NCBI GenBank assembly: GCA_035571835.1
Contig: DATNBU010000018.1
Span: 1-64,000 of the forward strand
Direction: 5' to 3'
Length of the DNA: 64,000 nt
From: Candidatus Limnocylindrales bacterium
GTDB lineage: Bacteria; Desulfobacterota; Binatia; UBA1149; CAITLU01
The notes beneath the pieces are model-generated. The model did not search any database. It saw nothing but the letters and a program-made list of their open reading frames with translations, and was not told the DNA's origin. The translations under genes and the position numbers were made by a program. Below, in pieces: positions 1,301 to 46,200 of this stretch; positions within the stretch are counted from its first letter, which is position 1, and each line of letters starts with the position of its first letter.

Positions 1301-2782
1301 ATGAAGAAGATGCGTAACCTCCACGCCGCCGCGTCATCACAGCGCGTGTCCTCTGCGACCTCCCTCCACCAAAGGCCGGCGCCGCGACTGTCTGGTCGCG
1401 GCGCCGGCTCCCTCCAGGGCCTCAAGGTGCTGAGCTTCGGCTGGGAGCTGGCTCCGATTCTTTCCGGCGGGCTCGGTGTGGCGTGCGCAGGCCTCGGCCG
1501 TGCACTGGTCGAAGAAGGCGTCGAGCTGACGTTCGTTCTTCCGAAACTTCCGCGTCCGATTTCTCCGAAAGGAATCCGCGTAAGGAATGCGCGCGACGTG
1601 CCGGTCGACGTTGCTCCGGAACGGCGGATCGCGCCCGAGAGCACGTCCGCCGGCGCAGCGGCTCCCGACTGCGCGATCCGGTTCGAGACGGTGCTTGCGC
1701 CGTACCAGACGCACGCGTCGTACCGCAACGCGCTCGGCGGCTCGCGGCTTGCGGGCGGCGGCAGCGCCGGCAGCGCCGGCAGCGCCGACGCCGCGCGCGG
1801 CAACGAAGCCGCGGACGCGTCACTTTACGGCGGCGATCTTCTCGCCGAAGTCGATCGCATGGCCGAAGCCGCCCGCAGCATCGCGGCCGATACGGCTCAC
1901 GATCTCATCCACTGCCACGACTGGATGACGTTCGCAGCCGGCGTTGCGGCGCGCGAAGTCTCCGGAAAGCCGCTCGTCGTGCACGTGCATTCGACCGAAA
2001 GCGACCGCAGCGGCGGCTCCGGCGGCAATGCGGCAATTCGCGCGTACGAGCAGGCGGGCCTCGTCGCGGCCGATCGCATCGTCGCGGTCAGTGATTTCAC
2101 GCGCCGAAAAATCCTCGAGCAGTATCCCGGCGTCGACAGCGCGAAGCTTCGCGTCGTGCACAACGGCATCGAGCAGGCGGGCCAGGCTGATGTCGAATGC
2201 CCGCCGCTCGGTGAGCGCCATCCGGTCGTGCTGTTTCTCGGACGGCTTACTGCGCAGAAGGGCCCGGAGTGGTTCCTGCGCGCCGCCGAGCTGGTCCACC
2301 GGCTGCGGCCCGATACGCAGTTCGTCGTCGCCGGAGGCGGCGAGATGCTTCCGTGGATGATCGAGCGCGCGGCCGACCTCGGCCTGGCCGCGAGCTTCTT
2401 CTTTACCGGCTTTCTCAGCGGCGACGACATCGTGCGCGCGTACGAGATGGCCGACGTGTTCGTGATGCCGAGCGTCAGCGAGCCGTTCGGCCTGGTTCCC
2501 GTCGAAGCGATGCTGCGCGGAACCCCGGCGATCGTCAGCCGCCAGTCCGGCGTCAGCGAAGTGATCCGTCACTGCCTGAAGGTCGACTTCTGGGACACGG
2601 CCGATCTGGCCGACAAGATCATTGGCGTCATCGACCACCGGCCGCTGGCCGAATCTCTTTCCAGCGGCGGGCGGCGCGAGGCTTCGCGCATGGACTGGCA
2701 AGGGCCCGCCCGCCGCCTTCTCGCAATTTTTTCCGAAGTGCTCGCCGAGCCGCGCGTGCTTCCCACTGGAGCAATCCGATGA
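1301..2782 (+). CDS. Glycogen/starch synthase-like glycosyltransferase (GT-B fold)
   Basis: This 493-residue protein probably transfers glucose from a nucleotide sugar to an alpha-glucan. The N-terminal domain opens with a synthase-like glycine loop (SGGLGVACAGLG near residue 55), the position of the KTGGL loop in GT5 enzymes. The C-terminal domain has FLGRLTAQKG and the donor-site E-x7-E motif in EPFGLVPVEA near residue 392. ATG 1301 is the first start after the divergent gene; the frame is open further upstream, but that part is antisense to the dehydrogenase and looks non-protein-like. A GSAGSAGSA run near residue 155 is a low-complexity insert. The stop overlaps the next start (ATGA), so it is translationally coupled to the GH57 gene. 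Confidence 0.85.
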   Translation: MKKMRNLHAAASSQRVSSATSLHQRPAPRLSGRGAGSLQGLKVLSFGWELAPILSGGLGVACAGLGRALVEEGVELTFVLPKLPRPISPKGIRVRNARDVPVDVAPERRIAPESTSAGAAAPDCAIRFETVLAPYQTHASYRNALGGSRLAGGGSAGSAGSADAARGNEAADASLYGGDLLAEVDRMAEAARSIAADTAHDLIHCHDWMTFAAGVAAREVSGKPLVVHVHSTESDRSGGSGGNAAIRAYEQAGLVAADRIVAVSDFTRRKILEQYPGVDSAKLRVVHNGIEQAGQADVECPPLGERHPVVLFLGRLTAQKGPEWFLRAAELVHRLRPDTQFVVAGGGEMLPWMIERAADLGLAASFFFTGFLSGDDIVRAYEMADVFVMPSVSEPFGLVPVEAMLRGTPAIVSRQSGVSEVIRHCLKVDFWDTADLADKIIGVIDHRPLAESLSSGGRREASRMDWQGPARRLLAIFSEVLAEPRVLPTGAIR

Positions 2783-4071
2783 ACAAGCTCTGCGCATATT
2801 TCCAGATTCACCAGCCGCACCGCCTGCGCCGCATGCGCGTGTTCGATATCGGCGCGCGGCTGTCGTGCGATGGCCGAGCGGAGCGGGTTGCGGACATGCC
2901 CGGCGATGCGGTGTCGACAGACCACTGGTTCGACGACGATCTCGACCATCGCGTGCTCGCGCGCGTCGTCGAACGATGCTACCGCCCCGCGACGCGAACG
3001 CTGCTGTTGCACGCGCGCCGCTACGGCCCGCAGTTCCGCGTGGCGTTCGGCGTGACGTCGACGGTGCTTGCGCAGCTCGAGCGCCACGCGCCCGACGTGC
3101 TCGACAACCTCGGCGAGCTCGTCGCATCGGGCTCCGCGGAAGTTCTCGGCGAAACGTCGCATCACTCGCTCGCATGGCTCGTCGACGTGGACGAGTTCGC
3201 GGCGCAGGTCGAAGAGCACCGCGATGCCGTCCGTCGCCGCTTCGGCGTCACGCCGGCGGTGTTCCGCAACACCGAGATGCTGTTCGACGACGGGCTCGCG
3301 GCTTGGCTCGCCGGCCGCGGCTATCGCGCGGTGCTCGCCGAAGGCGCCGATCGCCTGCTCGGCGGCCGCTCCGCCACCAGCATCTACAAGGCGGCCCCGG
3401 CGGCGCGGCTTCGCGTGCTGCTTCGCCATTACCGGCTGAGCGACGACGTCGGTTTCCGCATCGATCACGCCGACGGCGGCCGTCCGCTTGCCGCTGCGAC
3501 GTGGGTGCAGTGGGTCGCCGCCGCCGGCGGCCAGAGCGTCAACGTGTTTCTCGATTTCGAAACGTTCGGCGAGCACCAGGGCACGGCTTCGATGAAGCTG
3601 CTCGAGGAGCTGCCCGATGCGCTCGCCGCTGCCGGCGTCGCGATGCATCTGCCGAGCGAGGCCGCGGCGCTTGCGGCCGACGACAGCATCTCGGCGCGCG
3701 GGATTGTTTCGTGGGCGGACGAATCACGCGACGAGAGCGCGTGGCTCGGCAACTCGATGCAGCGTTCGGCGACGGCGCGGCTGTACGCGCTGCTGCCGGC
3801 CGTGCGCGAGACCGGCGACCGGCGTGTGCTCGAAGCATGGCGGCGCCTCGCGACCAGCGATCACGCCTACTACATGTCGACCAAGGGCTTCGGCGACGGC
3901 GAAGTGCACGCGCACTTCCGCCCGTACGAAAGCCCCTACGAAGCCCACCTCAACTTCATGAACGTCCTCGCCGACCTGAAGCTGCGCCTGACCGGAAAAA
4001 GGGGACAGGTACATTTAAAAAAGCTCAACGAATTCGTGCCGCAGAAATTCGCGGCGAGCAGCCCGCCGTGA
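2779..4071 (+). CDS. Glycoside hydrolase family 57 (alpha-amylase/glucanotransferase-like)
   Basis: This 430-residue cytoplasmic enzyme probably hydrolyses or rearranges alpha-glucans made by the upstream synthase. GH57 landmarks are present: the N-terminal YFQIHQPHR motif, the nucleophile Glu in FRNTEMLFDD (about residue 164) and the acid/base Asp in FLDFETFGEH (about residue 258). It overlaps the synthase gene by four bases. The last 25 or so residues (from GKRGQVHLKK) are encoded by an inserted inverted-repeat module (3995-4109), so the C-terminus has been rewritten compared with a normal end near residue 405. Whether it makes branches, hydrolyses or transfers cannot be decided from sequence. 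Confidence 0.88.
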   Translation: MNKLCAYFQIHQPHRLRRMRVFDIGARLSCDGRAERVADMPGDAVSTDHWFDDDLDHRVLARVVERCYRPATRTLLLHARRYGPQFRVAFGVTSTVLAQLERHAPDVLDNLGELVASGSAEVLGETSHHSLAWLVDVDEFAAQVEEHRDAVRRRFGVTPAVFRNTEMLFDDGLAAWLAGRGYRAVLAEGADRLLGGRSATSIYKAAPAARLRVLLRHYRLSDDVGFRIDHADGGRPLAAATWVQWVAAAGGQSVNVFLDFETFGEHQGTASMKLLEELPDALAAAGVAMHLPSEAAALAADDSISARGIVSWADESRDESAWLGNSMQRSATARLYALLPAVRETGDRRVLEAWRRLATSDHAYYMSTKGFGDGEVHAHFRPYESPYEAHLNFMNVLADLKLRLTGKRGQVHLKKLNEFVPQKFAASSPP

Positions 4072-4109
4072 ATTTGCTGCGAAAAAATAATTGTACCTGT
4101 CCCCTTTTT
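3995..4109. repeat. Inverted-repeat module with GGGGACAGGTAC arms (copy A)
   Basis: The left arm AAAAAGGGGACAGGTACATT starts at 3996. The right arm (about 4085-4109) is its near-perfect reverse complement, ending GTACCTGTCCCCTTTTT. The roughly 65-bp centre carries the end of the GH57 gene. A second module with the same arms lies at 28091-28180. It sits between convergent genes, so the hairpin could terminate both. The arms resemble REP-like palindromes mobilised by Y1 (RAYT) transposases in other bacteria; no such transposase is encoded here. Confidence 0.8.
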
Positions 4110-4348
4110 CAGTCGCGCAGGGCGTCGCGGATGAGGCGGATCGTGGCCTGGTAGTCTTCGAGATAGCGGGCGCAGTCGGCGCATGCGTCGAGGTGCAGGC
4201 GGCACCGGCTTTCATCGGCGGCGCCGAGCTCGCCGGCGAGATAATCCGCGAGCACGCCAATCAGCCACTGGCAGGTGATGTCTTGTTCCACGCGCACGTC
4301 CCTGTGGGCATTCACGGAGGAAAGGCAATCGGCCGGAGAAGCTAGCAT
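4109..4348 (-). CDS. Zinc-finger (zf-HC2) anti-sigma-like protein
   Basis: This 79-residue protein has the anti-sigma zinc-finger pattern: LADYLAGEL followed by C-x3-HLDAC-x2-C near residues 50-60. Such domains bind ECF sigma factors or act as short redox-sensing anti-sigma proteins. ATG 4348 is chosen because a GAGGG ribosome site precedes it. No sigma gene is adjacent; the ECF sigma in the window is over 6 kb away and has a different partner. There is no obvious transmembrane segment, so it would be cytoplasmic. The stop codon lies inside the edge of the inverted-repeat module. Function beyond the zinc finger is inferred. Confidence 0.7.
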   Translation of the reverse strand: MLASPADCLSSVNAHRDVRVEQDITCQWLIGVLADYLAGELGAADESRCRLHLDACADCARYLEDYQATIRLIRDALRD

Positions 4349-4475
4349 CGGACCCTCGTGACCGCAGCAGGCTCCGGGCTTGTCGAGTGGAAGTCCCGCA
4401 CGGAGCTCCGATGCCACGCCAGTTCGCCGGTTACACCGCGCGTAACTCTTTGCCGCACGCGGCGTCCAACCGCCC

Positions 4476-5852
4476 ATGGCGCAATCGCTCTCCCGTTTCC
4501 TCCGTCGGCTCCTGCCCGCATCCGACGGCCTCTCGCCCCGCGTCCGCGAAGCGATCGCCCGCACCGAAGACGCCAACGAAATCCTGCTCGGATGGGTCCA
4601 GCTGGCCGTCGTCACGCTGCTCGGCGCGCTCTACCTCGCGGCGCCGAAAGGCTTCGAAGCCAAGGACGTCGCGTTCGAGCCGGTGCCGTGGCTGCTCGCG
4701 TCGTACGCGCCGCTCGTCGTTGCGCGCCTCGTGCTCGCGCATCGCCGCCGGCTCGGCCCGGTGATCCTGACAGCATCGGTCATCATCGACATCAGCGTGC
4801 TGTTCCTGTTGATCTGGAGCTTTCACATCCAGTACTGCCAGCCCCCCGCGTTCTACCTGAAGGCGCCGACCTTCGCGTACGCATTCCTGTTCATCGCGCT
4901 GCGCAGCCTGCGCTACGACTTCCGCTACCTCGTGCTGACCGGCGTGACCGCCGCGATCGGCTGGATGGCACTGGTCGGCTACGCGCTCGGCCCCGGCGAC
5001 GCCGAGATCACGCGAAGCTTCGTCGACTATGCGATGGGCTATCACGTGCTGATCGGCGCCGAGCTCGACAAGGTCGTCTCGATGGCGATGGTCACCGGCG
5101 TGCTCGCGGTCGGCACCGTGCGCTCGCGGCGACTGCTCGCCGTGGCCGCGAGCGAAGGCCAGGCACGCCGCGAGCTGACGCGCTTCTTCAGCCCCGCCGT
5201 CGCGACTCGCATCGTCACGTCGGCCGACGCGATCCGGCCGGGCGAAGGCGAGATCCGCGAAGCCACGGCGCTGATGATCGACCTGCGCGGCTTCACGCGC
5301 CTTGCATCCACGCTGCCGCCGGATCGCGTGATGTCGCTGCTCGGGGACTTCCAGCGCCGCATGGTCGCCGTGCTGTTCCGCCACAACGGCTGCGTCGACA
5401 AGTTCCTCGGCGACGGCATCCTCGCGCACTTCGGCGCCGCCACGGAAAACGCGGCGCACGCGGCCGATGCGCTGCGTGCGGTCGACGACATCGTCGTTGC
5501 CGCCGACGAGTGGAGCCTTGCTGCGGCGGCCGACGGCGTCCCAGACCTCGACATCGGCGCCGCGTGCGCGAGCGGCGAGATTCTCTTCGGCGCGGTCGGC
5601 GACTCGGACCGGCTCGAATACACGGTGATCGGAAATCCGGTGAACCTTGCCGCCAAGCTCGAAAAACATACCAAGGCCGAACGCGTGCGAGCGCTGGCCA
5701 GCAGCGTGACGTGGGAGCTGGCCGTACGGTCCGGCTACGTGCCACCCGCGGATCGACAGATGCTCCGCGCGCGCGAGGTCGCCGGCGTCTCCGAGCCGGT
5801 CGACCTCGTCGTGCTCGCCGAACGCCGGTCGCTGGCCGCTGCCGCGGCCTGA
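4476..5852 (+). CDS. Membrane-anchored class III adenylate/guanylate cyclase
   Basis: This 458-residue protein has about five or six hydrophobic segments (residues 38-220) followed by a class III cyclase domain (about 262-440). Metal-binding aspartates are visible in LMIDLRGFT and KFLGDG. The GNPVNLAAKLE block keeps the transition-state Asn, but has Lys where most enzymes have Arg; this VNLAAKLEKH form occurs in other bacterial cyclases. It should make cAMP (or less likely cGMP) at the inner membrane. Only 15 bp separate it from an NADH dehydrogenase with a cyclic-nucleotide-binding tail, which is therefore its likely target. Activity of the Lys variant is assumed, not shown. Confidence 0.88.
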   Translation: MAQSLSRFLRRLLPASDGLSPRVREAIARTEDANEILLGWVQLAVVTLLGALYLAAPKGFEAKDVAFEPVPWLLASYAPLVVARLVLAHRRRLGPVILTASVIIDISVLFLLIWSFHIQYCQPPAFYLKAPTFAYAFLFIALRSLRYDFRYLVLTGVTAAIGWMALVGYALGPGDAEITRSFVDYAMGYHVLIGAELDKVVSMAMVTGVLAVGTVRSRRLLAVAASEGQARRELTRFFSPAVATRIVTSADAIRPGEGEIREATALMIDLRGFTRLASTLPPDRVMSLLGDFQRRMVAVLFRHNGCVDKFLGDGILAHFGAATENAAHAADALRAVDDIVVAADEWSLAAAADGVPDLDIGAACASGEILFGAVGDSDRLEYTVIGNPVNLAAKLEKHTKAERVRALASSVTWELAVRSGYVPPADRQMLRAREVAGVSEPVDLVVLAERRSLAAAAA

Positions 5853-5867
5853 TCTGCGGGGAATGCC

Positions 5868-7478
5868 ATGACGGAAACATCGCGCAAGCGCATCGTGATC
5901 CTCGGCGGCGGATTCGCCGGCGTCTACACGGCCCGCCGCCTCGAAAAGAAACTGAAGCGCCTCGGCGCCCGCGCCGGCGAGTACGAGGTCGTGCTCGTCA
6001 ACCGCGACAATTACTTCGTATTCCAGCCGATGCTGCCGGAAGTAATCTCGGGAAGCATCGGGATTCTCGACACGGTCAGCCCGCTGCGGCGGCTGCTGCC
6101 GCGAACGACGATCGTCGTGCGCGAAGTCGAGGACATCGACCTCGCGACAAGGACGATCCGCACGAGCCCCGGCGTGCATCCGCATCCGAGCGAGATCCGG
6201 TTCGATCACCTCGTGCTCGCGCTCGGCACGGTCACCGATTTCCGCGGCCTGCGCGGCCTGCCCGAGCACGCCATGCCGTTCAAGAACCTCGCTGACGCCC
6301 TTGCGCTGCGCAATCACGTGATCGGCGCGCTCGAAGAAGCCGCCGTCGAGCATGAGGAAGAGCTGCGCCGCCAACTCCTCACGTTCGTGGTCGCCGGCGG
6401 AGGATTTTCCGGCGTCGAGGTTGCGGCCGAGCTCAACGACTTCGTGCGCGAGGTGGCGCGCAGCTACTCGTCGATCGATCCGGGCGACATCCGCGTGGTG
6501 CTGCTGCATTCGCAGGACCGCATCCTGCCCGAGGTGTCGCCGAAGCTCGCGCTGTTCGCGCAGAAAATCCTTGCTGCCCGCGGCGTCGAGATCCGCCTGA
6601 ACACGCGGCTCGAGGCAGCCAGCGCCGAAGCTGCGCTGCTTGCCGGCGGTGAGCGCATAGCAACGCGTACGCTCGTCTCGTCGGTACCGAGCTCGCCGCA
6701 TCCGCTGATCCAGGCGCTGTCGCTTGCGAAAGCGCCGAACGGGCGCGTGATCGTCACGCCGCGCCTTGCGGTCGACGGAGCCGACAGGATCTGGGCGCTC
6801 GGTGACTGCGCGCTCGTGCCGAACCCGGACGGCGCCACGTTCGCACCGCCGACCGCGCAGCACGCGATCCGTCAGGCGACCGTCGTGGCCGACAACATCG
6901 CGGCATCGATCGCCGGCACAAAGCAGCGCAGCTTTTCGTTCGCCGGACTCGGCAAGATGGGATCGCTCGGGCACCGCACGGCCGTTGCCGACGTGTTCGG
7001 CTTTCAGGTCTCCGGATTTCTCGCGTGGTGGCTATGGCGGACGATTTATCTCGCCAAGCTTCCGGGCTGGGCTCGCCGCATCAAGGTCGCCACGTCATGG
7101 ACGCTCGACCTTTTCCTCCAACCCGACCTCGTGCAGCTGCGCGCCGGAGCGACAAGCGGTCTTCGCCACGAACATTACGAACCCGGTCAGGCGGTCTTTC
7201 ACCAGGGAGACGTCGGCGACAGCATCTTCGTGATCGTCGACGGAGCGGCCGAAGTGTTGCGCGAAGAGTCGGCGACCAGCACGCGCGTCGCGTGCCTCGG
7301 GGCAGGCGAGGTCTTCGGCGAGATGGCCCTTCTCGGGCGAAGCGTGCGCAACGCGACCGTGCGATGCCTCGAACCGATGACAATCCTGCGCCTGCCGAAA
7401 CGCGACTTCCGCCTGCTCGACGCATCACTGCCGGCGCTCAGGCGAAGCTTCGAGGACGTGGCTGCGGCGAGGGGCTGA
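5868..7478 (+). CDS. Type II NADH dehydrogenase with C-terminal cyclic-nucleotide-binding domain
   Basis: This 536-residue flavoprotein should pass electrons from NADH to quinone without pumping protons. An FAD motif (GGGFAGVYTARRLE, residue 10 on), a second dinucleotide motif (VVAGGGFSGVEVAAEL, about 174) and the C-terminal FAD contact WALGDCA support NDH-2. Ordinary NDH-2 ends near residue 420; here a CNBD follows (about 425-530) with the phosphate-binding cassette FGEMALLG-x3-RNATV, including the Glu and Arg that hold cyclic nucleotide. The gene lies 15 bp after a membrane cyclase, so I infer that respiratory NADH oxidation is gated by local cAMP. Ligand and direction of control are unknown. 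Confidence 0.88.
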   Translation: MTETSRKRIVILGGGFAGVYTARRLEKKLKRLGARAGEYEVVLVNRDNYFVFQPMLPEVISGSIGILDTVSPLRRLLPRTTIVVREVEDIDLATRTIRTSPGVHPHPSEIRFDHLVLALGTVTDFRGLRGLPEHAMPFKNLADALALRNHVIGALEEAAVEHEEELRRQLLTFVVAGGGFSGVEVAAELNDFVREVARSYSSIDPGDIRVVLLHSQDRILPEVSPKLALFAQKILAARGVEIRLNTRLEAASAEAALLAGGERIATRTLVSSVPSSPHPLIQALSLAKAPNGRVIVTPRLAVDGADRIWALGDCALVPNPDGATFAPPTAQHAIRQATVVADNIAASIAGTKQRSFSFAGLGKMGSLGHRTAVADVFGFQVSGFLAWWLWRTIYLAKLPGWARRIKVATSWTLDLFLQPDLVQLRAGATSGLRHEHYEPGQAVFHQGDVGDSIFVIVDGAAEVLREESATSTRVACLGAGEVFGEMALLGRSVRNATVRCLEPMTILRLPKRDFRLLDASLPALRRSFEDVAAARG

Positions 7479-7627
7479 GGTCTTGCTCGGCAGAGCTGCG
7501 GCACATCCTGTTGCTTAGGCGGCTTCGGTCCCGAGCCTAAGGTCGTCGGTATGTTCGGCGACCCGAACGCGCGCGCGCCTTCGGTACCAGGACCAGCTAC
7601 ATCGACAAGATCCGAGCTCCGACGACG

Positions 7628-7855
7628 TCTTCACGGAGCGGCCGCCATCGCCCGACATTCCGCGGGGAATGTTCGCGCATCGGCGAGATTGCCGCGCCTC
7701 GCATCCATGAAGGCGCGGCCGAAGTCGAGGTCCGTCTTCACGGAGCGGCCGCCATCGCCCCGCGGTCGCCGACCCGACATTCCGCGGGGAATGTTCGCGC
7801 ATCGGCGAGATTGCCGCGCCTCGCATCCATGAAGGCGCGGCCGAAGTCGAGGTCG
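7628..7855. repeat. 107-bp tandem duplication at the 3' end of HNH element copy 1
   Basis: The stretch beginning TCTTCACGGAGCGGCCGCCA at 7628 recurs at 7735 with near identity, except for a 14-bp insertion in the second unit. It contains the 3' end of the HNH gene and the palindrome, so copy 1 has one extra palindrome and an orphan copy of the last 30 or so codons. Confidence 0.9.
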
Positions 7856-9054
7856 GCCTGATACTGGTTGTGCGACGCGCAGCGCAGCTCGATGTTCTCC
7901 GGCGTGGTAGGTCCGCCCATCGCGAAGGGAGCTCTGTGGTGGAACTCGATGTTGCCGGTCTCGCGGCAGCGACGTCCTCGGCCGTCTACGTAGCGGCAGC
8001 GTCCCGAGTCGCGCCGCCATACTTCGCGCCGCACGGCCGCGGGGATGGTCCGGGATCGCTGGCCTCGCTGCGAAGCCGCCGTATCGGCCGCGGGCGTTGT
8101 GCCGGGCCGATCGGTGCATTTTTCTTTCGTCGGCATCGTCGACCCCGGTCGATCGGTGCAGCCTGCCTTGCGCGTGAGCGTCTGGACGAGCAGCACGTCG
8201 ATCGCACGACTGATGATCGCGGCCGCGTCGCGGCCGGTCGACGAGCGGCCGAGCAGGTCCTGTAGCGACCGAAGCTTGTCGTGCGTGGCTTCGTCTACGG
8301 TGATCTCGATCTTGTAACGACGCGGGCTGAGCGGAACGATCGGCTTCGGCACTGTTGCCGGCTGGGCTGACGGTGGAGCGATTGCAGCGCCGACGACCTC
8401 GGAGTCCGGCCGATTACTCGAGCAACCGACGAACTTGCGGTCTGCCCAAGTTCGCGGATCGCTCGCACCGCAGCCGACGGACTCGCGATCTGTCGAAGCC
8501 CACCGATCGCTCGCACCGTCGGCCCGTTCGCGATCCATCGAACTTCCGTCGTCCAACGCTGGCGCCGCCACCGCCGGCCCATTGCTCGCCGCGTCCGCAC
8601 CGCGACGCCGCGGCATCGCCCGAACACGCGACGCCACATCCGCTCGCGGCGCGAGCTCGGCAACCAGCCGCTCGACCTCGCGTGAGCTCTTGTGCCTGGC
8701 GCGCTCGAGCACTCGCACGTGGTTCTCGGTCGTCAGATGCCTCGCCAGCAGATGGATCGCGCTCAGATGCAGCTCGCCGCGTGCGACGAGGTCCAGCACG
8801 ACCGGAAAGCGACGCGCCGTGCGCGCAGCCCAAAGCCGCTTGGCCGTTACCTGCTCTGACATGTGGAAGCGCTCCATGCAGAAGCTGAACATGGAGGAGC
8901 AGGCATGCCTGGCCCAGAGCTTGCGCTCGTCGATCTCGGTGATCGCGACGAGTAGCGCCGCAGTCGTACGACGGTCGCGTGCGACGAGACACTCGAAGTG
9001 ATCGAGCAGTTCCTTTTCGGAGAGCTTTGCAATGCTGTCGAAGGATGTCGTCAT
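7738..9054 (-). CDS. HNH endonuclease (DUF222/13E12-like), element copy 1
   Basis: This 438-residue protein has a helical N-terminal region (residues 1-140) typical of 13E12/DUF222-type proteins, a Pro/Ser/Asp-rich linker and a C-terminal HNH nuclease. The nuclease shows RDSGRCRY, FHHRAPF and NIELRCASHNQYQ, giving the Cys, His-His, Asn and His positions of a metal-dependent nicking or cleaving site. ATG 9054 is chosen because copy 2 (50105) starts at the same MTTSFDS; the frame is open another 66 codons upstream, but those are poorly conserved. Compared with copy 2 it has a linker insertion of about 45 residues with SDR/DRE repeats. It probably drives mobility of the element; the target is unknown. 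Confidence 0.85.
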   Translation of the reverse strand: MTTSFDSIAKLSEKELLDHFECLVARDRRTTAALLVAITEIDERKLWARHACSSMFSFCMERFHMSEQVTAKRLWAARTARRFPVVLDLVARGELHLSAIHLLARHLTTENHVRVLERARHKSSREVERLVAELAPRADVASRVRAMPRRRGADAASNGPAVAAPALDDGSSMDRERADGASDRWASTDRESVGCGASDPRTWADRKFVGCSSNRPDSEVVGAAIAPPSAQPATVPKPIVPLSPRRYKIEITVDEATHDKLRSLQDLLGRSSTGRDAAAIISRAIDVLLVQTLTRKAGCTDRPGSTMPTKEKCTDRPGTTPAADTAASQRGQRSRTIPAAVRREVWRRDSGRCRYVDGRGRRCRETGNIEFHHRAPFAMGGPTTPENIELRCASHNQYQADLDFGRAFMDARRGNLADARTFPAECRVGDRGAMAAAP

Positions 9055-9778
9055 GACGACCCTTGTAACACGGGTTTTTCTGGCGTCGTTCTCGGTAAGG
9101 ACGCGACTGCCATCAAGCATGGATCTGTGGCAGCGAGCCGCAAGATCCGAGCGGCGCAACGCGCGAAGTCGGCGAAAAAAAACGTGCGCTCTGTTTTGCT
9201 TCGCTAGAGGCGATCTCAAGCGGCGAAATATCGCGTCAAGCGAAATCGACATCGCGACGACGCTTCAATAACAAAAGTAGCATAGCGCGGCCGTGATTCG
9301 CGCCCGGCAGGACGCGACCAGATCAGTGCGCGAGGTAGGGCAGGACACTCTCGACCCTGCCGTCCCGCTGACGGCGCCCGATCCGACGAAATCTTTCGGA
9401 CCCGTCGCCATCGCTCACCTCGGGCACGTGCTCAATACACCGATCACTCTGATCGCTGACGCATCGAACGAAACCTGGATCACATTCCCCGCGGAATGTT
9501 CGCAGCGACATAGCGCGCTGACCGTACTGCGCATCGCAACCCCAAGCTCATCGCCGGTAACAGCATCGACACGAGCCGGCGTCCATCCGCATGAATCAGA
9601 TCGTCCGGCGCTGTGATCTCCGGTCTACGAGACGAAGAGGCTGAAGTTGGCGTCCGTGTCGAGTTGTGACGTCGCACACGCAGGCAACTTCCAGTCTCCG
9701 CGCCGCGCCGCTATACGGTCCCCCATGGGCACGATCACTGGGGCAGCGTCTCAAAAGGCAGCACTTGAAAGGACATCA
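9055..9778. other. Left end of HNH element copy 1 and gene-free spacer
   Basis: Bases 9055 to about 9583 are the upstream arm of the element, with clear homology to 49565-50104 in copy 2. They hold the palindrome at 9482-9499. A short + strand frame reading TFPAECS across the palindrome has a counterpart in copies 2 and 3, but I do not call it a gene. 9584-9778 is unique sequence that should hold the lipoprotein promoter; a GAAAGGA ribosome site lies at 9767-9773. Confidence 0.6.
9482..9499. repeat. 18-bp palindrome, left end of element copy 1
   Basis: ACATTCCCCGCGGAATGT is the shared palindrome with one changed central base. It sits about 85 bp inside the left edge, as in copies 2 and 3. 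Confidence 0.85.
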
Positions 9779-40300: not shown

Positions 40301-43235
40301 CCACGTGCTGTACTCGAATTCGACGCTGCGGCCTTCGTCCGAGGCGCTCGCGCGCAACGGCCTCGGTCAGAACGCATTGTGGCCGCACGGCATTTCCGGG
40401 GATCTGCCGATCGTGCTGGTGCGCATCGACGACGTCGGAAATGTCGAGCTCGTGCGCCAGATCCTTCGTGCGCATGCGTACTGGCGCATCAAGCGCCTGT
40501 GCGTCGACATCGTGATCCTCAACGAGCGGCCGTCGACGTACCTCGCGGACCTGCAGGGATCGCTCGAAGCGATCGTGCGCGCCGGCCATCTCGAAGGCGA
40601 TGCCGCATGCGGAACTGTTTACCTTCTGCGAGCCGAGCAGATTTCGGTGGAAGTGCGAACGTTGCTCGCGAGCGCGGCCAGAGTCGTGCTGCGCGGCAGG
40701 CGCGGAAGCCTGTTCACGCAGCTCCAGCAGGCCGAAGATGCGCAGCCGGCGGTCGTGCGTGCGCTGCCGGCTCCGCCTGCTCGTGCGATCGTGCACGTAC
40801 CGCAAAGCACGGACCGGCGCGCGCCCGACCTCGAGTACTTCAATGGACTCGGCGGGTTCGACGACGACGCGCGCGAATACGTCACGGTTCTCGGCGACCG
40901 GCAGTGGACGCCCGCCCCGTGGATCAACGTGATCGCCAACCCGTCGTTCGGTTTCCAGGCGTCGGTCGAAGGCGCCGGCTACACGTGGTCGCTCAACAGC
41001 CACGAAAACCAGATCACGCCGTGGTCGAACGATCCGGTCGCGAGCCCGCCGGGCGAGGTGCTCTACGTCCGCGACGAAGACAGCGGTGTGCTGTGGTCGC
41101 CGACGGCGCTGCCGATTCGCGACCATGGATCCTACGTGTGCCGCCACGGTCAGGGCTACACCCGCTTCGAGCACGACGCGCACGGCATCGCGCTCGAGCT
41201 CGTGCAGTACGTGCCGGTGGCCGACCCGGTCAAGATCTCGCGGCTCGTGCTCCGCAATCACACCGGCAAGACCCGGCGTCTGTCGATTACGGCCTACGTC
41301 GAATGGGTTCTTGCGGCCACGCGCACGGCAGCTTCGCCGCACCTCGTCACCGAAATCGATGGCAGCACCGGTGCGCTCATGGCGCGCAACTGCTGGCGCA
41401 CGGAATTCGGTGAACGCGTCGCCTTTGCCGATCTCGGCGGGCGGCAGCTTTCGTGGACGGGTGACCGCGGCGAATTTCTCGGTCGCAACGGCGCGCTCGA
41501 CCGGCCCGCCGCACTGGCCGGCGGCGAGCCGCTTTCGAATCGTACCGGTGCGGGCCTGGATTCCTGCGCAGCGCTGCAGGGGCGGATCGAGCTCAAGCCC
41601 GGCGAGCAGGCCGAGCTCGTCTTCACGCTCGGCGAAGCCGGAAGTGCTGCGGAAGCCCGCGTCCTCGTCGAGCGTTACCGGAACATCGATCTCGACGACG
41701 TGCTGCGCACGGTGATCCGGTCCTGGGACGACATCCTCGGCCGCGTCGAAGTGCGCACGCCCGACCGGGCGATGGACATCCTTCTGAACCGCTGGCTGCT
41801 CTACCAGACGCTCGCCTGCCGGATATGGGCGCGGGCCGGTTTCTATCAGGCAAGCGGAGCGTACGGATTTCGCGATCAGCTGCAGGACGTGATGGCGATC
41901 GCGTCTACGCGGCCCGACGTCGCACGCGAGCAGATCGTCCGCGCCGCAGGCCGGCAGTTCCTCGAAGGCGACGTGCAGCACTGGTGGATGCCGGCCGCCG
42001 GACAGGGCGTGCGAACGCACGTCTCCGACGACAGGCTCTGGCTGCCATACGTGGCGGCGCACTACATCGAAGTGACGGGCGACGCGGGGATCCTGGACGA
42101 ACGCGTCGCGTTCCTCGAGGGCGCCACTCTCGGCAAGGACGAGGCCGATGCGTACTTCCATCCGATTGCATCCGACGTCGAGGCGACAGTCTTCGAGCAC
42201 TGCGTGCGCGCGATCGAATGCAGTCTTTCGGTCGGTGCGCACGGCCTGCCGCTGATGGGCGGCGGGGACTGGAACGACGGCATGAACCGCGTCGGCGCCG
42301 GCGGCAGCGGCGAAAGCGTGTGGCTCGGCTGGTTCCTCGGAGCGACGCTGTCGTCGTTCGCACCTCTGGCCGATGCGCGCGGAGAGCGGGCACGCGCGGC
42401 GGCATGGCGAGAGCACGCTGCGGCTCTGGCGACTGCGCTCGAGCGCGAAGCGTGGGACGGAGCGTGGTACCGGCGGGGCTATTTCGACGACGGCACGCCG
42501 CTCGGCAGCTCAATCAGCAACGAGTGCCGCATCGACTCGATCGCGCAGTCGTGGGCAGTGATGTCGCGGATGGCGGATCCGTCGCATGCGGCTCTCGCGA
42601 TGGCTGCCGTCGACCAGCACCTCGTCCGTCGCGACGACAAGCTCGCGCCGCTTTTCACTCCGCCGTTCGACCACACCGACCACGATCCCGGTTACATCAA
42701 GGGATACCCCCCGGGCATTCGCGAGAACGGGGGGCAGTATACGCACGCTGCAGCATGGTCGGTGATTGCGTTCGCCGAGCTTGGCGACGGCGACAAGGCA
42801 GCCGGGCTGTTCTCACTGCTCAACCCGATCCTGCACGCGAACACCCGCTCCGGCGTGCACCGTTACAAAGTCGAGCCGTACGTGATGCCGGCCGATGTGT
42901 ACTCCGTGCCGCCGCATGCCGGTCGCGGCGGCTGGACGTGGTACACCGGCTCGGCCGGATGGATGCATCGCGCAGGTCTCGAGTGGATTCTCGGGCTGCG
43001 CGTGCGTGGTTCTGTGCTGCGGATCGAGCCATGCGTGCCGAAGACATGGCCGGAGTATGAGATGGTCTACCGTCACGGATCGGCCCGCTACCAGATCGCC
43101 GTCGAGAATCCTCGCGGTGCCGGTCGCGGCGTGACGCTGGTCGAGATCGACGGCGTCGCTTCCCGAACCGGTGTCGCGGAAATCCCTCTCGTCGATGACG
43201 GCGGAGCTCATCTCGTTCGCGTGGTTCTCGGATGA
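34365..43235 (+). CDS. ndvB: Cyclic beta-1,2-glucan synthase-like protein (NdvB type)
   Basis: This 2956-residue membrane enzyme matches NdvB/Cgs size and order: N-terminal cytoplasmic part, GT84-type domain (LDADTRLPREAARRL near residue 665), membrane helices (about 430-480, 895-940 and 975-1040), a glucoamylase-like domain (about 1500-1620: GVSESAYNARDLEFTYQYS and YMAHHQGM), two beta-sandwich glycosyltransferase-36 regions, and a GH94 phosphorylase-like C-terminal domain with GGDWNDGMNRVG (about 2640). It should polymerise UDP-glucose into beta-1,2-glucan for osmotic or envelope stress. Start GTG 34365 is the first in frame, with no clear ribosome site. A GKGRAATRDG tandem insert lies near residue 830. 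No NdvA exporter gene is adjacent. Confidence 0.88.
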   Translation: MRDCIDNARRSHYNSGRHECITAFRETSDLKNLRLLLERTLRRTAADAADPEDLIRSELFSIERLEQHAETLAAAQHVTTRPTGERRLAPRLRDNGRVLLAAYRTIGETIREERAITPAAEWLVDNFHVVEEQIREIRDDMPAGFYRELPKLSDGPLAGYPRVFGLAWGFVAHTDSLFDPETLRRFVGAYQRVQPLTIGELWAVAITLRVVLVENLRRAADRIVTSRISRQDADAAANRLLGVGCTAESATNVLRRFEHVRLRAAFAVQLVQRLRDQDPDVTPALRWLDEKLAAQGTTADEIVREEHQLQGAMNVTVRNIITSMHLMSDVDWADLFEAISLVDAELRAGSDFAAMDFATRDRYRHEIESLARGSRHSELDVARRAMSAANAVSHLDVADAVERGRHQDSGYHLIGGGRTVFERTLAFRVPPHEWLPRAYRAAGIAGYLGTAAILTATLLLPAVLGVASYGVDRWMLALLAVLGLVPATDAAFALLNRHVAARFGASRLPALELEDGIPPELRTMVVVPTLLTTPAEIGEQIERLEVRHLASGEEDLRFALLSDWTDAAHESEPGDEILVASAAAAIDVLNQRYPPAADGKRFLLLHRRRVWNAGEGVWMGWERKRGKLHELNRLLRGALDTTFVAIGGIAPSVPGGVRYVITLDADTRLPREAARRLVGKMAHPLNRPRLDLRSGRVVDGYAVLQPRVIPSFPIGGEGSIFQRVFSGPGGIDPYASAVSDVYQDLFGEGSFTGKGIYDVDVFEAALEGRIPENAVLSHDLLEGVFARAGLVSDIEVVEEFPSRYDVAAARQHRWARGDWQLLPWIIGKGRAATRDGKARAATRDGHGSAATRDGDSARAAIPVIGRWKMLDNLRRTLSAPAAFLALAAGWMMPRHAATLWTGCVLALLAVPAVLPLLAGIVPRRAGISKRSHLRSIAADLELALLQTAFLVTLLAHQTWLMADAIVRTLLRLVVSHRRMLEWLTAAQAKFSLPLDVPGFYLRMAGGVGLAAAVALLVLSGGHGAAPVALPFVALWALSPVVAQWASRPPDVFGAGQLDGADRIALRMVARRTWRFFETFVTGADHMLPPDNFQEIPNPATAHRTSPTNLGLYLLSVAAARDFGWSGLVETVERLEATLGAMDRLERFRGHFFNWYATEDLRTLSPKYVSSVDSGNLAGHLLAIASTCREMLVRPVVDGQCFAGIADALRLATEALGQLTGNRHTQIVTRKHLDDALANLASLLDSPQPQAPSDVLAHLTRLGVQADIVADIARTWTAERNDGAGTDFLFWVDAVRASITSHTRDLDLLMPRRTLSASAGAARTSLPLVADSHGDAFDRESIPTLADVADLADGCGGCGGCEAARSLERRVTALSDLARQLFDRMEFGFLLDPARNLLSIGYQVAEGKLDTNCYDLLASEARLASFIAIAKGDLPVRHWFRLGRSLTPVDRGSALVSWSGSMFEYLMPSLVMRAATGSLLEQTSRLIVRRQVRYGSDRGVPWGVSESAYNARDLEFTYQYSNFGVPGLGLKRGLSEDVVVAPYATALATMVDPAGAVKNFARLADAGACGRYGYYEALDYTPTRLPEGKPVAIVQAYMAHHQGMTILAIANALHDGEMRTRFHADAMVQATELLLQERTPRDVAVSRPRAEEVHVASDVRELVPPMVRRFRSAHDRIPRTHLLSNGRYAVMLTAAGSGSSRCGDLAVTRWREDVTCDAWGSYVFLRDRIDGTVWSAGYQPTAVDADSYNVSFSEDRAEITRRDGTIRTTLEISVSSEADGEVRRVSLANLGNRTREIEVTSYAEIVLSTAAADLAHPAFSKLFVETEYVEAVGALLATRRPRSPGDPQVWAAHLAVVEGESIGAHEFETDRARFLGRGRTIRTPVAIENGASLGGTVGTVLDPVFSLRRSVRIPPGTTARIAFWTLIAPTRSEAIDLADKHHDATGYERAVTLAWTQAQVQLHHLGIGPDEAQYFQRLANHVLYSNSTLRPSSEALARNGLGQNALWPHGISGDLPIVLVRIDDVGNVELVRQILRAHAYWRIKRLCVDIVILNERPSTYLADLQGSLEAIVRAGHLEGDAACGTVYLLRAEQISVEVRTLLASAARVVLRGRRGSLFTQLQQAEDAQPAVVRALPAPPARAIVHVPQSTDRRAPDLEYFNGLGGFDDDAREYVTVLGDRQWTPAPWINVIANPSFGFQASVEGAGYTWSLNSHENQITPWSNDPVASPPGEVLYVRDEDSGVLWSPTALPIRDHGSYVCRHGQGYTRFEHDAHGIALELVQYVPVADPVKISRLVLRNHTGKTRRLSITAYVEWVLAATRTAASPHLVTEIDGSTGALMARNCWRTEFGERVAFADLGGRQLSWTGDRGEFLGRNGALDRPAALAGGEPLSNRTGAGLDSCAALQGRIELKPGEQAELVFTLGEAGSAAEARVLVERYRNIDLDDVLRTVIRSWDDILGRVEVRTPDRAMDILLNRWLLYQTLACRIWARAGFYQASGAYGFRDQLQDVMAIASTRPDVAREQIVRAAGRQFLEGDVQHWWMPAAGQGVRTHVSDDRLWLPYVAAHYIEVTGDAGILDERVAFLEGATLGKDEADAYFHPIASDVEATVFEHCVRAIECSLSVGAHGLPLMGGGDWNDGMNRVGAGGSGESVWLGWFLGATLSSFAPLADARGERARAAAWREHAAALATALEREAWDGAWYRRGYFDDGTPLGSSISNECRIDSIAQSWAVMSRMADPSHAALAMAAVDQHLVRRDDKLAPLFTPPFDHTDHDPGYIKGYPPGIRENGGQYTHAAAWSVIAFAELGDGDKAAGLFSLLNPILHANTRSGVHRYKVEPYVMPADVYSVPPHAGRGGWTWYTGSAGWMHRAGLEWILGLRVRGSVLRIEPCVPKTWPEYEMVYRHGSARYQIAVENPRGAGRGVTLVEIDGVASRTGVAEIPLVDDGGAHLVRVVLG
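36841..36934 (+). repeat. In-frame tandem repeat within the ndvB-like gene
   Basis: The unit GGCGCGCGGCGACGCGCGAC recurs at about 30-bp spacing, giving (K/H)-(A/G)-(R/S)-AATRDG three times. It sits in the loop after the GT84 catalytic region, just before a membrane segment, and is probably absent from typical NdvB proteins. Confidence 0.75.
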
Positions 43236-43254
43236 TCGGCAAGGTGAAAGCGAA

Positions 43255-46200
43255 ATGAAGCAACGATCCGCCACTCGCGCAAAACCGCAGGCGCCCGAAT
43301 CTTCCGCCGCACCAGCTGCATCCGATGCGGCGCGTGCCCACGTCGAGCCCGCATTTCCGATTGTCGGTATCGGCGCTTCCGCCGGCGGCCTCGACGCCTA
43401 CCGTACGCTGTTCTCGACGCTGCCGGCCGATTGCGGCGCGGCATTCGTGCTGATCCAGCATCTCGACCCTACGCGCAAGAGCCTGACGGCCGAGCTGGTC
43501 GGCGGGTACACGATGATGCCCGTCGTGCAGGCCGAAGAGGGGATGCGCGTCGAGATCGATCACGTCTACGTCATTCCGCCGAATACGTACCTTGGCATCC
43601 GCGATCGCACGCTGCGGCTGAGCGTGCCCGCCGAGTCGCGCAGCCTGCGCATGGCAGTCGATTTTTTCTTCGAGTCGCTGGCGGCTGCGGAGCACGATCG
43701 TGCGGTCGGCATCATTCTTTCCGGCAGCGGAACCGACGGCACCAACGGGCTGAAAGCCATCAAGGCCGCCGGCGGCCTGACGATGGTGCAGGATCCAAAA
43801 ACCGCGCAACACGACGGCATGCCGCGGAGCGCGATCGCGAGCGCCGATCACGTGCTTCCTGTCGAGCAGATGGCTTCGACGCTGCTTGACCACCTGCGCA
43901 GCAACGCCGGCAGTGAGGTCGCTGCCGAAACAGTCCCGAACGCCGTGTCGCATGCGCTCCTGGAAGCGATCGCCGTGCTGCAGGCGCGCACCAGCTTCGA
44001 CTTCAGCGGTTACAAGAAAGGGACGCTCCAGCGCCGCCTGCAGCACCGGATGAGCCTGCGCCGCATCGCCGCGATCGACGATTACACCGAGCTGCTGCGC
44101 ACCGATCCGGATGAAGCCTCCGCACTTTTTGCTGATCTTCTGATCAACGTGACCGGCTTCTTCCGCGATCCCGAGGCATGGCAGATTCTGCAGGAGAAAG
44201 TCGTACGGCCGATGGTGGCTGCGCAGCCCGTCGATGCCCCGATTCGGGTGTGGGTGCCCGCCTGCGCGTCCGGAGAAGAAGCGTATTCGATGGCGATCGT
44301 CTTTCTCGAAGAGCTCGAACAAGCGGGCAAGCGCTGCGAGCTTCAGATCTTTGCTTCGGACCTCGATACGGACGCGCTCGAGACCGCGCGCGCCGGCATC
44401 TATCCGGCAGCGGTTGTGAAGAACCTCGGGCCCCGGCGGACGGCCCGCTACTTTCTGCAGACCGAGCACGGCGTACGCGTCAGCAAGCAGCTTCGCGACA
44501 CGGTGGTTTTCGCGCAGCAGAGCCTGGTGCGCGATCCGCCGTTCTCGAAGCTCCAGCTCGTCAGTTGTCGCAACCTGCTGATCTATCTCGAGCAGCCGGT
44601 GCAGGACCGGCTCATTCCGCTCCTGCATTTCGCGCTGGTGAACGGCGGCTGTCTTTTCCTCGGGAGCGCCGAAGGCATCGGTCCGCACACGGACCTGTTC
44701 GAGGCCATCTCCGCAAAGTGGAGGATTTATCGACGCATCGGCCGGGCGCGTCACGAGCGGCTCGAGTTTCCGATCAGCGGTGCGCATCTGCCGATCGTGC
44801 ACGGAAGAATACCCGGCCCGCCGACACCGGCCCGCCTGGCCGCGCTCGCGCAGACCCTGATGCAGCGTTACTCGCCGGCCTGCGTGATCATCAACCGCAT
44901 CGGCGAGATTCTCTATTTCCACGGACCGACCGACGATTACCTGACGCGCCCCGACGGTTTGCCGACCAGGGATCTGATCGGCCAGGTGCGCGAGGGACTG
45001 CGCAGCAAGCTGCGCGGCGCGGTTCGCGACGCCATCCACGGCAAGCAGAAGGTGGTGGTCAGCGGCGTGCACGTGCGCCGCGGCGACAGTTTTCCACGAG
45101 TCCGCATCGTCGTGGAGCCGCTGCCGTCGACGACCGAGACCGAGAGCCTGTGGCTCGTCGTCATGGAAGACGAGACCGAATCCGACGACGTCGGGACGGC
45201 ACCGCCGGCGTCCGGAGAAGACATCGCCCACGTGCAGCAGCTCGAGTACGAGCTTCGCGCGACCAAGGAAGATCTTCATCAGACGATCGAAGAGCTGCGC
45301 GCATCCAACGAAGAGCTGATGTCGAGCAATGAGGAGCTGCAGTCGACCAACGAGGAGCTGGAAACGTCGAAGGAAGAGCTGCAGTCGCTCAACGAAGAGC
45401 TGACGACGGCCAACAGCCAGCTCGAGAACAAGATCGGCGAGCTCGAAGCGAGCAACAACGACCTCGACAACCTGCTCGCCAGCACCAACATCGCGACGCT
45501 GTTCCTCGACACGCAACTTCGTATCCGCCGGTTCACGCCGGCTGCCACGCGACTGTTCAGCCTGATCGCGGCGGATATCGGCCGACCGCTTTCCGACATT
45601 GCCCAGCGCTTCCGCGATCCGGCACTGCTGTCGGATGCGGCGCTGGTGCTGACCGAGTCGGTCACCCCGCGGCAGGAGGTCCAGGCCCAGGACGGCCGCT
45701 GGTACGTGCGCCAGGTGCTTCCGTACCGCACGCGCGACAACCGCACCGAAGGCGTCGTCATCACGATGTCGGACGTCGCGGCCGAAGCGATCGAGGAAGC
45801 CCGCCTGTACGCGGAAGCGATCGTCGACACGGTGCGCGAACCGCTGCTGGTGCTCGACGGCGATCTTCGCGTGGTCTCGGCCAACCGCTCCTTCTATTCG
45901 ACCTTCAAGGTGTCGAGCGCGGATACGGCCGGTCGCTCGCTGTACGAGCTCGGCGGCGGCGAATGGGACATCCCGCAGCTGCGTACGCTGCTCGGCGAGG
46001 TGCTTCCCAAGCAGCACGTGATGAACGATTTCCCGATGAAGCATGATTTCCTGACCACTGTCGGTCCGCGCAACCTGCTCCTCAATGCGCGCGCGCTGCT
46101 GCGTGGCGGAGACCGGCCCGGTCTCATCCTGCTCGCCATCGAGGACGTCACCGAGCGCATGCAGCTCCAGTCGGTGCTGCGCGAAAGCGAAGACCGCACC

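Follow-up and report, generated by a model that had tools for sequence, protein, structure and literature searches.

Enzymes of the NDH-2 type, the non-pumping NADH dehydrogenases, can carry a second-messenger domain, as do Ca2+-regulated forms from plants and fungi that contain an EF-hand; in bacteria, the known roles of cyclic nucleotides are mostly in transcriptional signalling. Here, we describe a gene for a predicted fusion of an NDH-2 with a cyclic-nucleotide-binding domain (CNBD) instead of an EF-hand, located at 5868–7478 (plus strand) of a 64,000-nucleotide stretch from Candidatus Limnocylindrales bacterium (contig DATNBU010000018.1, positions 1 to 64,000, assembly GCA_035571835.1; hereafter the window) and preceded by a gene for a membrane class III nucleotide cyclase. 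With a probability of roughly 0.6, we read the fusion protein as a ligand-gated NDH-2 whose ligand is supplied nearby by this cyclase. A related arrangement, a prokaryotic CNB domain on a pyridine nucleotide-disulphide oxidoreductase, has been described as the 'Bact_Pyrredox' family (Kannan et al., 2007; PMC2246266). Its description sets it apart: the family has tandem CNB domains with the cassette GEMGLISGRRRGATVRA, whereas the window protein has a single CNBD stretch with GEMALLGRSVRNATVRC, so that the window protein lacks the tandem trait of the family. In the passages of PMC2246266 on this family, NDH-2 is not mentioned, nor is a cyclase partner; excerpts of the same paper state that prokaryotic CNB domains serve mainly in transcriptional signalling and that they may take part in NADH production. 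The mycobacterial acetyltransferases MtKat and MsKat are, according to excerpts of PMC5861322, bacterial enzymes that cAMP activates directly through a fused CNBD; they differ from the window protein in the enzyme and in the N-terminal rather than C-terminal position of the CNBD. The M. loti channel, SthK, HCN channels and the regulatory CNB domains of PKG and PKA share the CNBD fold, the cassette and the C-terminal helices, but they gate a pore or a kinase and not a flavoenzyme.

The 536-residue product matches three profiles, all over the cut-off: Pyr_redox_2 (PF07992, 2.2e-37), NDH2_C (PF22366, 2.4e-8) and cNMP_binding (3.4e-21). An AlphaFold2 (AF2) model built from 57 homologues has a mean pLDDT of 90.3 and a pTM of 0.86, and it superposes on the solved NDH-2 of C. 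thermarum (5kmr) with a Z score of 46.8 and a root-mean-square deviation (RMSD) of 1.9 over 385 residues. The Z scores against the enzymes from S. aureus (5na1), a mycobacterium (9mqy) and yeast (Ndi1, 5yjw) are 45.8, 44.8 and 43.9, respectively. The core (residues 1–415, 5868–7112) comprises the FAD and NADH domains and putative membrane-anchor helices, and it shares with these structures the fold, the NDH2_C domain, Glu184 and the AQxAxR form of the quinone motif; it differs from them in the CNBD of about 105 residues added at the C-terminus. First, Glu184, kept in all 57 aligned fusions, corresponds to Glu172 of the S. aureus enzyme, an equivalence read from the GxGxxG-E context, and this glutamate occurs in 97% of NDH-2s according to excerpts of PMC5299459. 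Second, the quinone motif AQHAIR (residues 330–335) is the AQxAxR variant, which the same excerpts report for 15% of 1762 NDH-2s; Gln331 and Arg335 are again present in 57 of 57. Two putative anchor helices (residues 384–397 and 401–414) would fix the protein to the membrane, by analogy with NDH-2 structures. Finally, His214 aligns with a Glu in the C. thermarum sequence. Because His stands in place of this Glu, NADPH could be considered as a substrate; the trait is shared by the plain relatives (His in 20 of 21 close ones and in 54 of 57 fusions), and thus the cofactor preference of the fusion should not be assumed. By sequence and predicted fold, the product is an NDH-2, for which NADH:quinone activity is predicted.

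Since VIA-align of the full model listed oxidoreductase chains only, a separate model of the C-terminal part was used for a second search. The C-terminal 139 residues modelled alone give a pLDDT of 77.3, with values below 50 for the first 32 residues, a range that takes in the anchor helix. This model overlays the ligand-bound CNBD of the M. loti channel (3cl1) with a Z score of 18.2 and an RMSD of 2.6 over 106 residues, and over about residues 421–536 it fits both cAMP-bound and cGMP-bound CNBDs. Among solved proteins, the closest to the CNBD profile are a Toxoplasma multi-CNB protein, PKGs and PKA regulatory subunits, a ranking inflated by their repeated domains. The CNBD (residues 433–536, 7164–7475) ends in two C-terminal helices and contains the cassette FGEMALLGRSVRNATV at residues 483–498, with Glu485 and Arg494; the initial annotation, which had described a class III cyclase followed by an NDH-2 with an intact phosphate-binding cassette in a C-terminal domain, is borne out on each of these points by the profile matches and the residues. 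The Arg and Glu of such cassettes contact the cyclic phosphate and the ribose. In the aligned fusions, Phe483 and Gly484 are invariant (57/57), Glu485 is kept in 55 and Arg494 in 56. Of the 103 columns of the CNBD, these last two belong to the eight with the highest conservation; in the median column, the commonest residue is found in 30 of 57. The domain is thus canonical in profile, modelled fold and cassette, and binding of cAMP or cGMP is predicted; that it binds a cyclic nucleotide appears highly probable.

The connection between the two parts shows a further constraint. From Trp411 to Gly447, both invariant, the distance is 37 residues in all 57 fusions, in contrast to the variable lengths found within the CNBD and within the core; the short linker (residues 416–432, 7113–7163) lies within this stretch. 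The constant length suggests a rigid mechanical connection and not a tether, and it argues for rigid coupling of the CNBD to the anchor helix. Ligand gating of the NDH-2 is, on these sequences and models, a well-supported inference.

The fusion is widespread. Searching genome_contigs gave 326 loci encoding a relative; 58 of the best 80 have a CNBD, 21 have none, and L057 is cut by a contig end. These 80 do not exhaust the fusions, as one in G160 lies outside them. The idea of a peculiarity confined to this genus is thereby rejected. Three of the 58 loci were left out of the A1 fusion set (L042 and L071, which contain X, and L062, which is out of frame), and L068 and L094 were left out of set A4; the part of L044 used starts at 585 and that of L060 at 6474. 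Most fusion records are metagenome-assembled genomes (MAGs); the complete chromosome of Planctomycetes Pan216 carries no MAG mark, the record title of Mariprofundus EBB-1 calls it a pure culture, and two of the MAGs, M30B1 and M30B2, have been closed to a chromosome. When 93 NDH-2 cores are placed in one tree, all 57 fusions fall on one side of a single branch (support 99/88, present in 98% of 200 bootstrap trees) under ten phylum labels: Acidobacteriota, Myxococcota, Ignavibacteriota, Planctomycetota, Lindowbacteria, Rokubacteria, Methylomirabilota, Nitrospirota, Pseudomonadota and Chlamydiota. By tree path, the window fusion lies nearest, outside the genus, to the Acidobacteriota rows L022 and L021 and to L026, which is labelled Myxococcota; the plain NDH-2s of the window's own class are placed elsewhere. 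This pattern fits movement of the fusion between lineages, although L025 and L026 perhaps belong to the window's own class. Among the matches listed for a set of 98 relatives, full length is reached only in G000 and G001, the window's genome and a congener; the next reach about residue 427, and one longer match (G056:C2), when read through, ends without a CNBD. The statement that NDH-2 enzymes normally lack this domain needs qualifying, since a large clade of NDH-2s has it.

At the level of whole genomes, the fusion is associated with cyclases. Taking a PF00211 match over the cut-off as the criterion, a class III cyclase is present in all 51 fusion genomes searched and in 12 of 18 fusion-less ones (one-sided Fisher test, 1.5e-4), in counts that ignore phylogeny and genome size. 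The 51 are G160 and 50 of the 58 fusion genomes, with L042, L062 and L071 included and L027, L031, L034, L047, L068, L074, L084 and L094 left out; the fusion-less genomes derive from the 21 plain loci minus L079 (same isolate as L023) and L099 (same isolate as L088), with G160 counted as a fusion genome. In a sample of 116 genomes of Chlamydiia, 19 have the fusion, each together with a plain NDH-2, and all 19 have a cyclase, compared with 45 of the 97 fusion-less genomes (3e-6) and with 34 of 54 that have only a plain NDH-2 (7.5e-4); G258, matched only in the CNBD, was kept out of the 54. Neither sample contained a fusion carrier devoid of cyclases, a combination that would have spoken against a cyclic nucleotide as the ligand.

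On these grounds, we propose how the enzyme may work. The NDH-2 core would oxidize NADH, and FAD would relay the electrons to the membrane quinone. A cyclic nucleotide bound at the Glu485/Arg494 cassette would displace the helices of the CNBD, and this displacement would reach the anchor helices beside the quinone entrance through the short connection of fixed length, so that activity rises or falls with the level of the cyclic nucleotide. In PKG and HCN channels, ligand binding relieves inhibition, and our guess for the fusion is modelled on them. The ligand, most likely cAMP, would be provided close to the enzyme by the neighbouring membrane cyclase. Of these parts, a change in activity on ligand binding seems likely, while for local supply by the window cyclase we see about even odds.

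The cyclase gene occupies 4476–5852 (plus strand, 458 residues) and is separated from the fusion gene by 15 bp (5853–5867), as originally reported for both reading frames and the gap. The two genes are probably co-transcribed; a promoter and terminator scan of 4050–7700 found nothing above shuffled sequence. The cyclase matches Guanylate_cyc (PF00211; E = 1.1e-7, 32.1 bits against a cut-off of 21.9) and has five hydrophobic segments between residues 36 and 215, followed by a catalytic domain at about 258–450; its closest solved relatives by sequence are 6fht, a bacteriophytochrome-adenylate cyclase protein, and 2w01. In the alignment, the metal-binding Asp pair is Asp269 and Asp313, and the substrate pair, Lys309 and Thr383, is of the ATP type. 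Of the transition-state pair, Asn390 is present and Lys394 occupies the usual Arg position; Lys is also found in the second species of the genus and, among other aligned loci, in L123, with His in L121. The roles assigned to the metal and substrate positions follow PMC4215837 in part. Excerpts of that paper give Lys/Asp as the adenylyl substrate pair and Glu with varied residues as the guanylyl one, place Thr at the second position in some cyclases of either kind, and report that a cyclase lacking the usual Asn is still active, the Asn–Arg pair being usual and not universal. The most likely product of the window cyclase would be cAMP, and its supply by this neighbour to the NDH-2 is no more than plausible.

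Whether the pair is conserved in other genomes, a question raised by the initial annotation, has a divided answer. It is kept, with the same 15 bp gap, in the second species of the genus (L002), and among the loci examined it recurs only at three outside the genus, where a cyclase gene lies immediately upstream on the same strand: L043 (Methylomirabilota), L049 and L053 (both Rokubacteria). The fetched flanks of three other Rokubacterial fusions (L040, L045 and L060) contain no cyclase. A close orthologue of the window cyclase occurs in 2 of 148 genomes of the class, its own counted, and these surveys of flanks, upstream neighbours and class-wide orthologues exclude a broadly conserved pair. 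The association nevertheless exceeds what the density of cyclase genes in those genomes predicts, with flank cyclases at 7 of 50 fusion loci against 0.66 expected and directly upstream same-strand cyclases at 3 against 0.07, counts in which related loci are not independent. In L025, one of the seven, the contig end leaves just a fragment of the cyclase, and a flank cyclase is also present at L074, which is not among the 50 loci. Separately from these counts, a Chlamydiia contig (G236:C20) has a fusion at 41886–43466 and a cyclase domain at 44684–45211, about 1.2 kb away on the opposite strand.

Several observations weigh against a gated enzyme with local ligand supply. A cyclase is found in only 3 of 54 scanned upstream neighbours, and thus most fusions would have no local supply. 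Outside the genus, the partner cyclases differ in type from that of the window: those of L049 and L053 have Glu/Ala at the substrate positions, a guanylyl-type pair, and that of L043 has a response-regulator N-terminus with Arg and Gly, which form neither substrate pair. The window cyclase itself, with Lys394 for Arg, may be slow or dead. Counting those of the window, its genome has 21 matches to PF00211 and 15 to PF00027; with so many class III cyclases a private pool is not needed, and co-occurrence in such cyclase-rich genomes is partly expected. In the uncorrected counts, 12 of the 18 fusion-less genomes also have a cyclase. Lastly, the cassette residues are lost in 2 of 57 fusions, so the domain can persist without them. 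Both are Planctomycetota, L068 lacking Glu and Arg and L094 lacking Glu, and they are natural candidates for a ligand-independent form.

A rival explanation is an enzyme gated by a general cellular pool of ligand, with the adjoining cyclase incidental in this genus and serving other effectors. The narrow distribution of adjoining cyclases and the number of cyclase and CNB matches in the genome favour this explanation, as does the fact that fusions elsewhere adjoin other genes: Cytochrome_C554 is the commonest upstream family (5 of 54 neighbours, ahead of Guanylate_cyc with 3), and a transaldolase family is found in 9 of 51 downstream neighbours. Upstream neighbours were scanned at 54 of 57 loci (L042, L044 and L063 left out) and downstream neighbours at 51 of 54 (L042, L074 and L084 left out). 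The excess of same-strand cyclases directly upstream outside the genus and the 15 bp gap kept in both species speak against it, and we consider it rather unlikely. The claim of local cAMP control of electron entry made in the initial annotation is kept in part: a canonical, conserved CNBD on an NDH-2 makes cyclic-nucleotide control probable, but the neighbourhood is not generally conserved. The ligand may be cAMP or cGMP, given the guanylyl-type partners in L049 and L053, and the window cyclase has Lys394 at the usual Arg position.

An improbable alternative is that the CNBD is a structural module, for dimer contact, membrane seating or partner docking, in which ligand binding is absent or irrelevant. 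Some CNB families do have non-canonical cassettes or respond to other signals (excerpts of PMC2246266), and the two fusions lacking cassette residues could be of this kind. A purely structural role, however, would not demand that Glu and Arg be kept in 55 and 56 of 57 fusions across ten phylum labels, and a cyclase is present in 51 of 51 fusion genomes searched. It is very improbable that the CNBD recognizes some different small molecule, such as a nucleoside or a nucleotide of another kind, and that the cyclase link is a coincidence, on the model of trypanosomatid PKA, where nucleosides take the place of cAMP (excerpts of PMC10959531), given the retained cassette Arg and Glu and the genome-level association with cyclases.

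For a gated NDH-2 with a nearby ligand source, the wider genome offers a setting. It encodes a complex I 49-kDa subunit and another NDH-2-like gene (C33:23980–25221, 34% identity), beside which the fusion would be an extra, switchable way in for NADH electrons; the cell has many cyclic-nucleotide proteins, and this entry is probably regulated. If so, a non-pumping dehydrogenase switched by cAMP or cGMP would tie a second messenger to the NADH/NAD+ balance and the respiratory rate at enzyme speed. More tentatively, with somewhat less than even odds, the fusions may be one clade of second-messenger-gated dehydrogenases spread through about ten phyla, including Chlamydiae, in some lineages of which a two-gene membrane module of cyclase and NDH-2 sets electron entry at enzyme speed via cAMP or cGMP, without transcription. 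The fusion also points to a metabolic role for cyclases in chlamydiae with small genomes, and the 57 aligned members, among them those of Mariprofundus EBB-1 and Planctomycetes Pan216, provide test proteins for post-translational regulation of NDH-2. A literature search for NDH-2 or NADH dehydrogenase together with cyclic-nucleotide domains found no relevant title, which is weak evidence of novelty as subscription journals lay mostly outside it; 'cyclic nucleotide' and 'cNMP' are absent from the excerpted text of a review of NDH-2-type enzymes (PMC6947548).

Some neighbouring genes may be recorded here. Cytochrome_C554-family genes lie directly 5' of the fusion in L038 (4669–5952) and L074 (1982–3409) and could encode an electron partner; a transaldolase-family gene lies directly 3' of it in L048 (7618–8265), and likewise in other Chlamydiae loci. 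In the window, the gene at 2773–4068 (plus strand), ahead of the cyclase gene and the fusion, belongs to glycosyl hydrolase family 57 (PF03065) and follows a reading judged from its translation to be glycosyltransferase-like, and a short anti-sigma-like reading with a putative zf-HC2 zinc finger (4112–4312, minus strand, start guessed) is divergent from the cyclase gene. Downstream, a minus-strand open reading frame (7738–9252) has a weak HNH endonuclease match below the cut-off, near-repeated stretches are seen at about 7640–7800, and a 48 bp repeat occurs in two copies at 8422–8518.

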